A stretch of 64,000 bases of DNA from Thermococcus sp. 2319x1. Its GTDB lineage: Archaea; Methanobacteriota_B; Thermococci; Thermococcales; Thermococcaceae. The position numbers were made by a program, and so were the translations under genes. The notes beneath the pieces are model-generated. The model was not told where the DNA came from, searched no databases, and saw only the letters and a program-made list of their open reading frames with translations. Of this stretch, positions 42,566 through 46,172 are shown one piece after another. The first letter of the stretch is position 1; every line of letters starts with the position of its first letter. The stretch is from NCBI RefSeq assembly GCF_001484685.1, contig NZ_CP012200.1, positions 552,321-616,320 on the forward strand, read 5' to 3'.

Positions 42566-42574
42566 TTTATAAAA
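42566..42574 (+). promoter_or_regulatory. TATA box of the DUF134 regulator gene
   Basis: TTTATAAAA stands directly before GCGCCGTCGCACAAAA (42575-42590). That stretch resembles the GTGCATATGCACAAAA element at the other promoters of this locus, and GGGGAAACCC follows at 42599-42608. The placement suggests regulation by a factor that also acts on the genes at 44.9-45.8 kb. Confidence 0.5.
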
Positions 42575-42630
42575 GCGCCGTCGCACAAAACCTAAAAAGG
42601 GGAAACCCAAACTGTAATTTAGGTGTTGAA

Positions 42631-42993
42631 ATGCCACGCGGGATGGGATGGGGGAGAGGGAGAAGGCGAAAAATGCGATTTATAGGATTTATCCCCGAGG
42701 TTAGGCATTTCTACCCAGCTAAGCCACCTTTTGGCCCTCCGCAGCCTCCGATTTTCATGACCTATGAAGAGTTTGAGGCCTTAAGGCTGGTGGATTATGA
42801 AGGACTAACTCAAGAGGAAGCCGGGCAGAGAATGGGTGTCTCAAGAGGAACAGTATGGAGGGCTTTAAGTTCTGCAAGAAAAAAGGTGGCCCAAATGCTT
42901 GTTGAGGGGAGGGAGTTAATAATCCTGGCCCAGGGAAATGAAATTCCTGGGTCATCTCAGGAGCCAGAGGTTACCGATGAAGACTCGTTTTAG
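42631..42993 (+). CDS. DUF134 helix-turn-helix regulator
   Basis: The 120-residue protein has a basic Gly/Arg start (PRGMGWGRGRRRKMRF), a Pro-rich middle (FYPAKPPFGPPQPPIFMTYE) and a sigma70-region-4-like helix-turn-helix (LTQEEAGQRMGVSRGTVWRA). DUF134 proteins occur next to Mrp/MinD and NifX-like genes in many anaerobes. It probably regulates the four genes downstream on both strands; that link is inferred from position and shared motifs. Confidence 0.85.
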   Translation: MPRGMGWGRGRRRKMRFIGFIPEVRHFYPAKPPFGPPQPPIFMTYEEFEALRLVDYEGLTQEEAGQRMGVSRGTVWRALSSARKKVAQMLVEGRELIILAQGNEIPGSSQEPEVTDEDSF

Positions 42994-43045
42994 CCCTTCT
43001 TTTCCGGCGATTGTATAAACCCTTTCCATCCCTTACTAGTGGTTG

Positions 43046-43056
43046 GCACATAGTGC
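43046..43056. promoter_or_regulatory. Palindrome GCACATAGTGC in the DUF134-Mrp gap
   Basis: GCAC-ATA-GTGC follows a TATA-like TTGTATAAACC (about 43009-43019), and GTGCAAATGC is at 43070-43079. It recalls the GTGCATATGCAC elements elsewhere in the locus. No intact gene follows on the plus strand, so it may be a leftover promoter. Confidence 0.3.
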
Positions 43057-43114
43057 ATCAGATGCTGCGGTGCAAATGCTAAGAGGACGTTATGAGAAAA
43101 TTAAAGGGCAGGAA

Positions 43115-44002
43115 CTACTTTAAAATCTCCTCTTTAACGGCCTCTGCTATTTCTTTGAGCGCTATAGAGGCTTTTGAATCCGGAAACGCCTCGACTACTG
43201 GCTTAAGCATTACCATGCTTTTTGGGATTGCTATATCGTATGGTATCTCACCGATTATTGGGATGGCTTCTTTTTCGGCGAATTCATAAAGTCCCTTAAA
43301 GCCCGGATTCAGATCAGCTTTGTTTATTATAAGGTATGCTGGCTCTCCGAAGTGCTGGACAACCCTGTAAACCCTCTTCACGTCACTTAGCGAAGCGGGG
43401 GTTGGTTCTGCTATGAGTATTGCAACATCTGCCCCACCAAGGCTTGCTATCACTTGGCACCCTATGCCAGCTGCCGAATCAACTATCATGTGCTCCAGAT
43501 TTTGTTCTTTCATAATTCTCTTTGCCCACTCTTTTTCCTCTGTAACGAGCTTTCCGCTGTTTGGCCTTCCCACGTAGAGCTGGGCTGAAATCAGAGGAAA
43601 GCCGTATCTTGTTGTTGTCTTTCTAATTATGCCGGAACGAACTTCCTCTAAAGTGATTACCCCTTCTATCGGGCATACGAGCTTACAAACTCCACACCCT
43701 TCACAAGTTAGCTCATTAACCACGTAATTTCCATCAACAATCTTTATGCAGTCATGGGGGCATTTCTCAGCGCATATACCGCACTTTATGCAGGTTGAGG
43801 TGTTTATCCTTGCCACTTTTGCTCCTGTGAGCTCTTTCTCCTCTTCCCACCTCTCAACTCCAAAGAGAAGGTCGAGGTTTGGAGCGTCGGCATCGGCATC
43901 GACCGCTATTAGGGAATACTCATCTTTGAGAAGGTATATGAGTGAAGCGGCAACACTTGATTTGCCAACCCCTCCTTTTCCACTCGCTATCGCGATCTGC
44001 AT
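43115..44002 (-). CDS. MinD/Mrp-type ATPase with inserted ferredoxin domain
   Basis: The 295-residue protein has deviant Walker A SGKGGVGKSSV and AVDADADAPNLDL. Two [4Fe-4S] motifs are inserted after the first third (CIKCGICAEKCPHDC and CEGCGVCKLVCP), and Walker B is MIVDSAAGIGC. It is close to the next gene upstream, its paralogue, five bases away. In Desulfovibrio a pair of such ATPases belongs to the orange-protein complex. They may assemble or carry a metal cluster. ATG at 44002 follows GGGGTGATTAAA. Confidence 0.9.
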   Translation of the reverse strand: MQIAIASGKGGVGKSSVAASLIYLLKDEYSLIAVDADADAPNLDLLFGVERWEEEKELTGAKVARINTSTCIKCGICAEKCPHDCIKIVDGNYVVNELTCEGCGVCKLVCPIEGVITLEEVRSGIIRKTTTRYGFPLISAQLYVGRPNSGKLVTEEKEWAKRIMKEQNLEHMIVDSAAGIGCQVIASLGGADVAILIAEPTPASLSDVKRVYRVVQHFGEPAYLIINKADLNPGFKGLYEFAEKEAIPIIGEIPYDIAIPKSMVMLKPVVEAFPDSKASIALKEIAEAVKEEILK

Positions 44003-44007
44003 TTTAA

Positions 44008-44868
44008 TCACCCCAGATAATTGGCTACCCTTTCGGCAAGGTCTTTGAAGATTTTCGCTTCCTTTTTATCGGTTAGGACTATAGGTTCTCCTTTAACATA
44101 ACTCCTGATAATAGCCTCGCTGTATGGAATTTCCCCAACTATCCCGGCGTTGTATTTCTGCACCATCTCTTTTACTCTCTTTTTCTCCCCGATATCGGCC
44201 CTATTGACAACAACCCATGCCTCTATGCCCATTAACTTGGCGAGCTCGAGGATAAGGGTCAAGTCATGAAGGCCAAGTGGGGTGGGCTCTGTAACTGCTA
44301 TGAGGAGCTTTGAATCTTCCAATGCCTTAGAAACAGTGTTGCTTGTACCTGCGGCAGTGTCCACTAACAAAAGCTCTTTGTTAAGGGCTTTCGCCCTCTT
44401 TTTTGCCGCGGTTACGATAGGCAGTGCCCGCTCTTCCCCTTCGAGCAGTTTTCCGGTAACCAAAGGAAACTCATAAGGTGTCTCGGTGAAGTAGGTATGC
44501 CCCATAAGCTTCTCTCCCTCCAATATTGCCCCCGTAACTGGGCAGACTATCTCACAAGCCCTGCACCCAGAACATAGAGTGGGCATTAAGAACGGTGTTC
44601 CATCCCTCATTGTGATTATTGCGTTTTCTCCACAAACTTCTGCACATTTTCTACATTTTATGCACTTGGAATAATCAAAGCGCGGCATGAACATGTGAAC
44701 GGGTTCCTCATTCTGCAGCTCAACTCCAAGGAGAATATGATCGTTTGGCGCCTCGACGTCTAAATCCGCCAGAGCCAAGTCGAAATACTCCCGTAAGGCC
44801 ATTGCAAGGTTAACGGCTACTGTTGATTTTCCTGTTCCGCCTTTACCCCCACTCACCGCTATCTGCAT
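44008..44868 (-). CDS. MinD/Mrp-type ATPase with inserted ferredoxin domain (second copy)
   Basis: This 286-residue paralogue of the next gene has SGGKGGTGKSTVAV, ADLDVEAPNDHI, Fe-S motifs CIKCRKCAEVC and CSGCRACEIVCP, and LLVDTAAGTSN. ATG at 44868 has GGAGGTGAGGTG ahead of it; earlier in-frame codons are in the regulatory region and are rejected. Its promoter lies at about 44900, with TTTTTAAGG as TATA and a GTGCATATGC element just upstream. Confidence 0.9.
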   Translation of the reverse strand: MQIAVSGGKGGTGKSTVAVNLAMALREYFDLALADLDVEAPNDHILLGVELQNEEPVHMFMPRFDYSKCIKCRKCAEVCGENAIITMRDGTPFLMPTLCSGCRACEIVCPVTGAILEGEKLMGHTYFTETPYEFPLVTGKLLEGEERALPIVTAAKKRAKALNKELLLVDTAAGTSNTVSKALEDSKLLIAVTEPTPLGLHDLTLILELAKLMGIEAWVVVNRADIGEKKRVKEMVQKYNAGIVGEIPYSEAIIRSYVKGEPIVLTDKKEAKIFKDLAERVANYLG

Positions 44869-44884
44869 CACCTCACCTCCACAG

Positions 44885-44898
44885 TTAGGGAAACCTAA
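44885..44898. promoter_or_regulatory. Inverted repeat TTAGGGAAACCTAA (ORP-like locus)
   Basis: TTAGG and CCTAA flank GAAA, between the TATA box and the start of the second MinD gene. Close relatives are TTAGGGAAACC (45106-45116), GGGGAAACCC (42599-42608) and, reversed, GGCTTTCCTAA (45813-45823), each near a promoter of the same locus. It is a candidate operator. Confidence 0.45.
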
Positions 44899-44912
44899 AA
44901 CCTTAAAAATTT

Positions 44913-44926
44913 TGTGCATATGCTCA
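44913..44926. promoter_or_regulatory. Imperfect copy of the GTGCATATGCAC operator
   Basis: TGTGCATATGCTCA differs at one base from the perfect palindrome at 45132-45145. It sits upstream of the TATA box of the second MinD gene. Confidence 0.5.
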
Positions 44927-45105
44927 CTCATTTCCCGCTTCTTAATTTTCTCGTGTAGAACCACCCCTATGGTGACCATGGGTGCGCCGGGCTCAGTAAA
45001 CTGGAAAAAATCTACCGGGTGGAGGGCAAGAAACGCGTACGGCGCAGAAACGGCCTTTTCCATGGATATCACACGGAGTTGTTCCGTGAAACGGGTCTAT
45101 AAGGG

Positions 45106-45116
45106 TTAGGGAAACC
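45106..45116 (+). promoter_or_regulatory. TTAGGGAAACC element ahead of the first NifX gene
   Basis: This element lies just upstream of the TATA-like AGTTTAAATG (45121-45130). The same motif is at 44885-44898 on the divergent side. Confidence 0.4.
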
Positions 45117-45131
45117 GAAAAGTTTAAATGG

Positions 45132-45145
45132 TGTGCATATGCACA
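45132..45145. promoter_or_regulatory. Perfect palindrome TGTGCATATGCACA
   Basis: This 14-base palindrome is placed just after the TATA box and over the expected transcription start of the first NifX-type gene, where a bound protein would block transcription. Related copies are at 44913-44926, 42575-42590 and, as a half, GCTTATGCAAAA at 45790-45801. Confidence 0.6.
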
Positions 45146-45165
45146 AAATAATAGAGGCGGTGGAT

Positions 45166-45744
45166 ATGAGGATTGCTGTTCCAACAAACGGTGGAGGTAG
45201 GGAAGATACAGTTGCTCCGGTCTTCGCAAGGGCACCGGCATTCTACATAGCGGATGCTGATGAGAATGGCAACATAGTCGGTGAGAAGGTCATCCAGAAC
45301 AGCGCTGCAATGGTCGGTAGAGGCACCGGCCCAATGGTTATGCAGACGCTTATCAACGAGGGCGTTGAAGCTATAATAGCTCCCCTGGGTCCAAAGGCAT
45401 TCGGCTTGATACGGGCAGCGGGCATTAAACTCTATCAGGTCGCCCCCGGAACTCTTGTTGAGGAGGCCATAAAGAGCGTTGTGCGCAATAGAGCAGGCCA
45501 GTTCACAGAACCGGCTCCACAGGCTCCGATCGCTCCGGTTACCCCCGTGACCCCAGCGACACCAGCTACCCCAGTGTATCCCGCCTACCCAGCCTACGGC
45601 TTCGGCTATGGATGGGGTAGAGGCTTGGGAAGAGGACGCTGTTTTGGCAGAGGAAGAGGCTGGGAAGCAAGACTCGGCTACTGCCCTTGGTGGGGATTTC
45701 CAAATAGAAGAAATCGGTTTGCGGGATTCCTTGGCCGGTGGTGA
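45166..45744 (+). CDS. NifX/NifB-fold (dinitrogenase Fe-Mo cofactor family) protein with Gly/Arg-rich tail
   Basis: The product has 192 residues. The first 110 are the RNase-H-like NifX/NafY fold that carries metal clusters: MRIAVPTNGGGRED, FYIADADENGNI, and INEGVEAIIAPLGPKAFGLI. Then comes a Pro/Ala/Thr/Val linker of repeated APVTP-like units, and a Gly/Arg/Tyr/Trp-rich tail (GFGYGWGRGLGRGRCFGRGR) with two Cys. ATG at 45166 follows GAGGCGGTGGAT. It is adjacent and divergent to two MinD ATPases, as in orange-protein loci. Confidence 0.85.
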   Translation: MRIAVPTNGGGREDTVAPVFARAPAFYIADADENGNIVGEKVIQNSAAMVGRGTGPMVMQTLINEGVEAIIAPLGPKAFGLIRAAGIKLYQVAPGTLVEEAIKSVVRNRAGQFTEPAPQAPIAPVTPVTPATPATPVYPAYPAYGFGYGWGRGLGRGRCFGRGRGWEARLGYCPWWGFPNRRNRFAGFLGRW

Positions 45745-45842
45745 AATTTTTAGGGAGTGAAAATGCCACACAGGAGGACTGTTTTTGAGCTTATGCAAAA
45801 TTTTTTAAATTCGGCTTTCCTAATTTACTCGGGGGTGATAGG

Positions 45843-46172
45843 ATGAGGGTAGCAGTTGCGACCATAACGGGAGGTCTGGAGGATTTCGTCAATCAGCACT
45901 TTGGGAGAACTCCAACATTCACAATAGCTGATGTTGAGGACGGGGAAATAAAGAGCGTTAGAGTGGTTCCCAATCCGGGTGCAAGTGCCCAGAGGGGTGC
46001 TGGGGTTCAAGCGGCTCAATTCTGCATAGATGAGGGAGTGGATGTTGTTATAGCCGGTCAACTTGGGCCTACTTCATCTCAAGTGCTTCAAAAGTCGGGC
46101 ATAAAGTTTGTCTCGGCCCCTCCCACAATGAAGGTGGAAGAAGCGATAAGGGCGTTCCTTAGGGAGGATTAG
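45843..46172 (+). CDS. NifX/NifB-fold protein (orange-protein-like)
   Basis: This 109-residue stand-alone version of the same fold contains MRVAVATITGGLEDFVNQHF, FTIADVEDGEI and DEGVDVVIAGQLGPTSSQVL. The orange protein ORP and NifX bind metal-sulfur clusters in this scaffold. GGGGGTGATAGG precedes the ATG. Upstream lie a half operator (GCTTATGCAAAA) and a TATA-like TTTTTTAAA, so it may have its own promoter. Confidence 0.88.
   Translation: MRVAVATITGGLEDFVNQHFGRTPTFTIADVEDGEIKSVRVVPNPGASAQRGAGVQAAQFCIDEGVDVVIAGQLGPTSSQVLQKSGIKFVSAPPTMKVEEAIRAFLRED

Follow-up and report, generated by a model that had tools for sequence, protein, structure and literature searches.

Genes of the locus

We analysed a 64,000-nucleotide window from Thermococcus sp. 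2319x1 (contig NZ_CP012200.1, positions 552,321 to 616,320), part of a complete 1.96-Mb Thermococcaceae genome, and examined within it a five-gene locus that encodes a helix-turn-helix protein, a pair of ferredoxin-bearing ATPases and two NifX proteins, one of which resembles the iron-sulfur storage protein IssA. Coordinates are those of the window unless given as genome positions. An earlier, sequence-only reading of this stretch had listed a DUF134 regulator, two MinD-type ATPases with ferredoxin inserts and two proteins of the NifX/orange protein (ORP) fold, and all five were found at its positions by open reading frames and Pfam matches. The DUF134 (UPF0251) gene (42631..42993, + strand; PF02001 and NF003257) encodes 120 amino acids. 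The ATPases are encoded by a two-gene operon in which minDb (44008..44868, - strand) precedes minDa (43115..44011, - strand), the GTG start of minDa running into the TGA stop of minDb. Transcribed divergently from this operon is issA (45166..45744, + strand), and nifX2 (45843..46172, + strand) follows with its own promoter. The locus therefore comprises at least four transcription units, namely DUF134 (+), minDb-minDa (-), issA (+) and nifX2 (+).

The issA product consists of a cysteine-free NifX domain (PF02579, 52.2 bits over residues 13-105, Pfam cut-off 26; no cysteine in residues 1-109) and a tail of 83 amino acids which is proline-rich and then rich in glycine, aromatic residues and arginine, with 10 lysines or arginines, 16 aromatic residues, 15 glycines, 12 prolines and two cysteines in all. 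This tail is conserved within the Thermococcaceae, and full-length tailed relatives occurred in all family genomes checked except four (G001, G004, G006 and G034), which are drafts of 61-79% completeness. IssA of Pyrococcus furiosus is a protein of 179 amino acids with a 70-residue tail containing 7 cationic, 14 aromatic, 15 glycine and 11 proline residues, and a 53-element analysis counted about 38 Fe for each monomer, along with 1 Zn, the iron being stored as thioferrate (PMC5524996). Set beside this published description, the tailed protein is by its architecture IssA-type, which points to iron and sulfide rather than to tungsten or molybdenum.

The nifX2 product is a tailless NifX/ORP-fold protein of 109 amino acids (PF02579, 84.8 bits, same cut-off) whose closest solved structures are MTH1175 (1eo1) and the Desulfovibrio gigas ORP (2wfb, 3e-10). 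A third NifX-type gene, which lies beyond the window at genome coordinates 1450460-1450918, is broken by a frameshift, and several family genomes carry shorter NifX paralogues with intact frames at other places.

As the sequence-only reading had it, both ATPases carry a ferredoxin insert; Pfam resolves each as a CbiA/ParA domain plus a two-cluster 4Fe-4S insert, with a deviant Walker A motif and two CxxCxxCxxxC motifs per insert. All 8 cysteines of MinDb sit in the insert, and MinDb lacks the CXXC with which the P-loop domain of Mrp/Nbp35 proteins holds a bridging cluster. The predicted structure of MinDb (mean predicted local distance difference test score, pLDDT, 94.6) is MinD/ParA/NifH-like, the nearest structures being those of MinD, FleN, ApbC, a HypB-type ATPase and NifH. 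Thermococcaceae MinDb proteins lack the switch-II PPG-x-SCP motif of their relatives (AAGTSNT here), and MinDa retains the cysteine. The tandem pair was present in reasonably complete Thermococcaceae genomes.

A composite operator around the TATA box

The promoters of minDb-minDa, issA and nifX2 share a composite operator in which a predicted iron box, TTAGGNNNNCCTAA (E1), and a palindrome, TGWGCATATGCWCA (E2), flank the TATA box. Before minDb-minDa, the predicted E2 site (TGAGCATATGCACA, 44913..44926, - strand) lies upstream of a TATA box predicted from sequence and conserved position (TTTTTA in TTTTTAAGG, 44904..44909, - strand), and the predicted E1 site (TTAGGTTTCCCTAA, 44885..44898, - strand), which fits the 14-bp IdeR/DtxR consensus, lies downstream. 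The order is reversed before issA, where a predicted E1-type box (TTAGGGAAACCGAA, 45106..45119, + strand) is followed by a predicted TATA box (TTTAAA, 45123..45128, + strand) and then by a predicted E2 site (TGTGCATATGCACA, 45132..45145, + strand). The nifX2 promoter has the minDb order of E2, TATA box and E1, with a predicted diverged copy of E2 (TGAGCTTATGCAAA, 45786..45799, + strand) and a predicted E1 site with one mismatch (TTCGGCTTTCCTAA, 45810..45823, + strand).

This arrangement was conserved across the family. Searched with a strict E2-gap-E1 pattern, 38 of the 94 Thermococcaceae genomes yielded 39 matches in total, against 0 for the reversed control, and the operator is therefore far beyond chance. 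In a survey of orthologue promoters allowing up to two mismatches in each element, E1 and E2 were both found for 31/31 minDb, 28/31 issA and 20/26 nifX2 genes; the background set of this survey takes in spurious and antisense frames over the same promoters and thus overstates the background. Start-to-start offsets were +25 or +26 for minDb, a spacing fixed in all 31 orthologue promoters, mostly +22 or +23 for nifX2 and mostly -28 to -31 for issA. The arrangement is kept in Pyrococcus despite minDb and issA lying far apart there. The claim that the five genes form one regulatory unit needs qualification: the minDb-minDa, issA and nifX2 units are joined by a common operator, but they are separately transcribed, and DUF134 has no such site upstream.

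E1 is most likely an iron box, as TTAGGNNNNCCTAA equals the proposed 14-bp IdeR/DtxR consensus (PMC8464063). Thirteen E1-type sites were found in this genome as against 3 for the control; one lies at feoAB, and others adjoin genes for ZnuA-like, rubrerythrin and peroxiredoxin proteins. The genome has one DtxR gene above the family cut-off, whose product would be the predicted E1 binder. Among the sites outside the window, one at genome position 1721476 lies between the genes for a RuBisCO large subunit and a rubrerythrin, and a second, close by at genome position 1720065, adjoins the RuBisCO gene at its other end.

Published expression data come from relatives. In RNA-seq of Palaeococcus (Pa.) pacificus, the four orthologues of the structural genes are the 1st, 2nd, 3rd and 5th most sulfur-induced genes, with log2 values of 6.23 for SipA, 4.29 for its NifX2 neighbour and 3.74 and 3.41 for two adjacent 'CobQ iron-sulfur' genes, whose locus tags we equated with minDb and minDa by gene order and annotation. 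Co-expression of the set, whose absence the sequence-only reading had named as grounds for refutation, is borne out for these four genes, and the Pa. pacificus ATPase pair is co-induced even though it lies ~11 kb from issA. The reversed order of E1 and E2 at issA had suggested an inverted logic, in which one signal would turn issA on and minDb-minDa off; since all four genes are induced, this was rejected. In Thermococcus onnurineus only cells grown on sulfur contained detectable SipA, and sipA of P. furiosus responds to sulfide only under sufficient iron, a dual requirement that suits a promoter with two inputs.

DUF134 as candidate reader of E2

The DUF134 protein (PF02001, 90 bits, cut-off 27; NF003257, 204 bits, cut-off 115) is the most likely reader of E2. 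Its gene occurs in 72 of 74 good-quality family genomes, often unlinked to the locus. Absence of DUF134 from Pyrococcus would have excluded it as the E2 binder; this was ruled out, the gene being nearly universal but unlinked.

Strong E2 sites in this genome lie before issA, minDb-minDa, nifX2 (diverged) and the frameshifted third NifX copy, whose promoter pairs the palindrome with a TATA box; five two-mismatch sites checked elsewhere in the genome all fell within reading frames. In other lineages, 12 of the 27 DUF134 genes have an E2-type palindrome (up to two mismatches) within 150 bp upstream, against a mean of 0.32 after shuffling. The consensus behind this count came partly from those same promoters, and we therefore repeated it independently with a consensus built from Thermococcaceae only, which gave 5 of 27 (shuffled 0.04). 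A blind search for the exact 16-mer E2 palindrome found it in 3 of 295 Desulfobacterota genomes. Two of these have a single site, directly beside a DUF134 gene that has a NifX gene behind it. In the third (G230), the exact palindrome ATGAGCATATGCTCAT is present in five copies near contig ends, apparently within a repeat.

By inspection, the operator type also followed the recognition helix of DUF134: CATATG-centred sites accompany SR-type proteins, sites resembling TGAATATATATTCA the SQ type and sites resembling TGCAT-n4-ATGCA the HQ type. While only suggestive, since the SQ and HQ groups have few members and these are related, this pattern makes it appear that the E2 sequence varies with the recognition helix. 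Another conserved Thermococcaceae regulator might instead bind E2, with DUF134 linked for other reasons, and in favour of such a regulator are the lack of an E2 site upstream of DUF134 itself in the window genome and the literature we searched, in which we found no study of DUF134 as a regulator and no DUF134 DNA-binding data. We regard this as unlikely, as palindromes of the same type precede DUF134 genes in several phyla and operator types track recognition-helix types. Several DUF134 proteins of other lineages have cysteines in their N-terminal part (e.g. KCCRR), whereas the window protein and most Thermococcaceae copies read are without cysteine.

The ATPase pair, IssA and known systems

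The sequence-only reading had likened the gene set to the ORP complex of Desulfovibrio, and at the level of protein families this kinship holds. In a tree of 79 sequences, which does not contain Desulfovibrio vulgaris Orp3 and Orp4 and in which bootstrap values had not fully settled, the window MinDa grouped with MinDa-type partners (support 97/91) and the window MinDb with MinDb-type partners (94/77). Both clades include sequences from Desulfobacterota, Clostridia, methanogens and others, among them Desulfobacterota and clostridial pairs that adjoin MrpORP genes; Mrp/MrpORP domains formed a separate group (100/100). The ATPases thus group with the ferredoxin-insert pairs of anaerobes and apart from Mrp/Nbp35 proteins, and it is because they share clades with pairs that stand beside NifX and MrpORP genes that we place the kinship at family level. 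Neighbourhoods of the DUF134-NifX-MinDb-MinDa-MrpORP type occur in many phyla, and matches to the ATPase pair were present in 177 of 295 Desulfobacterota genomes.

Kinship of this sort, with the shared pair clades and NifX fold of the Desulfobacterota and Clostridia modules and the match of NifX2 to D. gigas ORP, would also be expected of a true archaeal ORP complex, in which the ATPases insert a Mo or W sulfide cluster into the NifX proteins (compare the S2MoS2CuS2MoS2 cluster of orange protein) and perhaps affect cell division. We consider this very improbable. The signals at the locus are an IssA-type tail and iron boxes, not features linked to Mo or W, and the P. furiosus protein holds Fe and one Zn; we found no feature in support of the W- or Mo-containing cluster that the sequence-only reading had envisaged. 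The two-domain MrpORP (Orp9) is absent from this genome, where the best match reached 310 bits over model positions 5-258 only (cut-off 450). The ATPases scored 78.2 and 58.4 bits against the cell-division MinD model minD_arch, far under its cut-off of 201.75, and nothing at the locus points to a role in cell division.

We favour a different reading, which we hold to be probable: the locus is one for iron-sulfur storage by IssA in a Thermococcaceae archaeon, set within a wider ORP-type gene module of anaerobes and controlled by iron and sulfide, at which the ATPases would load or unload the IssA store. Reduction of sulfur would yield sulfide that ties up free Fe(II), on which a DtxR-type repressor would leave the iron boxes and feoAB iron uptake and the IssA regulon would be turned on. 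A second input, of which DUF134 is the most likely mediator, would act at the E2 palindrome and limit the response to issA, minDb-minDa and nifX2. IssA may then polymerise iron and sulfide as thioferrate on its cysteine-free NifX domain and cationic tail, and the ferredoxin-bearing ATPases, drawing on ATP and electrons, may either fill IssA with thioferrate or free Fe-S units from it, assisted by NifX2 in the part of a small carrier or scaffold.

Several points weigh against this storage reading. In Pyrococcus the ATPase genes are distant from issA. A stable ATPase-IssA complex would not be expected either, since IssA immunoprecipitated from P. furiosus came as particles without any other protein, and an interaction between the two is therefore probably transient. 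The issA and minDb promoters have opposite element orders, yet sulfur raises both, and the simplest rules of position fail to account for this. We assign the protein to the IssA type from its architecture and from the publication of its Pa. pacificus orthologue as SipA, PF2025 being compared by description only. On the regulatory side, the helix/operator comparison draws on a small number of class-level relatives that are themselves related, and Fe-S sensing by DUF134 is unproven, given the lack of cysteine here and in most of the Thermococcaceae copies read.

Some of these points would suit another explanation, that the ATPase pair and NifX2 serve as general Fe-S carriers or repair factors for other apo-proteins and that IssA is a co-regulated neighbour which mops up iron sulfide. 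The pair occurs in the other lineages examined, where its NifX partners are usually tailless; it is unlinked from issA in Pyrococcus; and the P. furiosus IssA particles lacked partner proteins. We think this explanation has a small chance of being right, as E2 is confined to issA, minDb-minDa, nifX2 and the third NifX copy, with the checked two-mismatch sites elsewhere lying within frames, and the four genes take places 1, 2, 3 and 5 among the sulfur-induced genes of Pa. pacificus.

The paper describing IssA (PMC5524996) leaves open how thioferrate comes to be deposited in the protein and is later made available for cluster building. The storage reading names two ATPases and a second NifX protein as co-regulated candidate partners of IssA, with defined operator sites, and DUF134 as the probable regulator, which would give this uncharacterised helix-turn-helix family its first function. 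Partners, regulator and sites are all testable in the genetically tractable Thermococcales. The storage reading also connects published work on IssA storage with that on the ORP complex; a common gene module appears to underlie both. More tentatively, and with the odds somewhat against so broad a generalisation, DUF134 proteins may be dedicated regulators of ORP-type modules across anaerobic bacteria and archaea, acting through CATATG-centred palindromes. Such modules might generally build or mobilise thioferrate-like iron-sulfide stores, with the ATPase pair as an ATP-driven loading and unloading machine, and the Thermococcaceae would have fused palindrome control with an iron box into a composite operator used in both orientations.

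Among characterized systems, the DtxR/IdeR iron box (PMC8464063) resembles E1 in sequence and in having a site at feoAB in this genome. It differs in that E1 forms a composite element together with a second palindrome, the two flanking the TATA box, and DtxR binding in the archaeon is predicted. IssA/SipA of P. furiosus (PF2025, PMC5524996) shares with the issA product a cysteine-free NifX (IPR003731) domain and a tail that is proline-rich and then rich in glycine, aromatic and cationic residues; the tail here has 83 residues and two cysteines, and the P. furiosus tail one cysteine. That published description is of the protein without the ATPase pair, NifX2, DUF134 or the operator, and thioferrate storage at the present locus is predicted.

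To our knowledge, sigma-54 is absent from archaea. The ORP complex of D. vulgaris (Orp3, Orp4, Orp5, Orp8 and MrpORP/Orp9; PMC6345978) is similar in its two P-loop ATPases with two [4Fe-4S] motifs each, its NifX/ORP-fold protein and its divergent transcription units. It differs in having MrpORP and a sigma-54 promoter, whereas the present locus has no MrpORP, has TATA promoters in which an iron box is paired with a palindrome, and includes a tailed IssA-type protein. The DUF134-NifX-ATPase-ATPase-MrpORP module on plasmid EAL2_808p of Peptoclostridium acidaminophilum has an orthologous ATPase pair, DUF134 and NifX in common with the Thermococcus locus, but it is a single compact operon headed by DUF134, with MrpORP and without the IssA tail.

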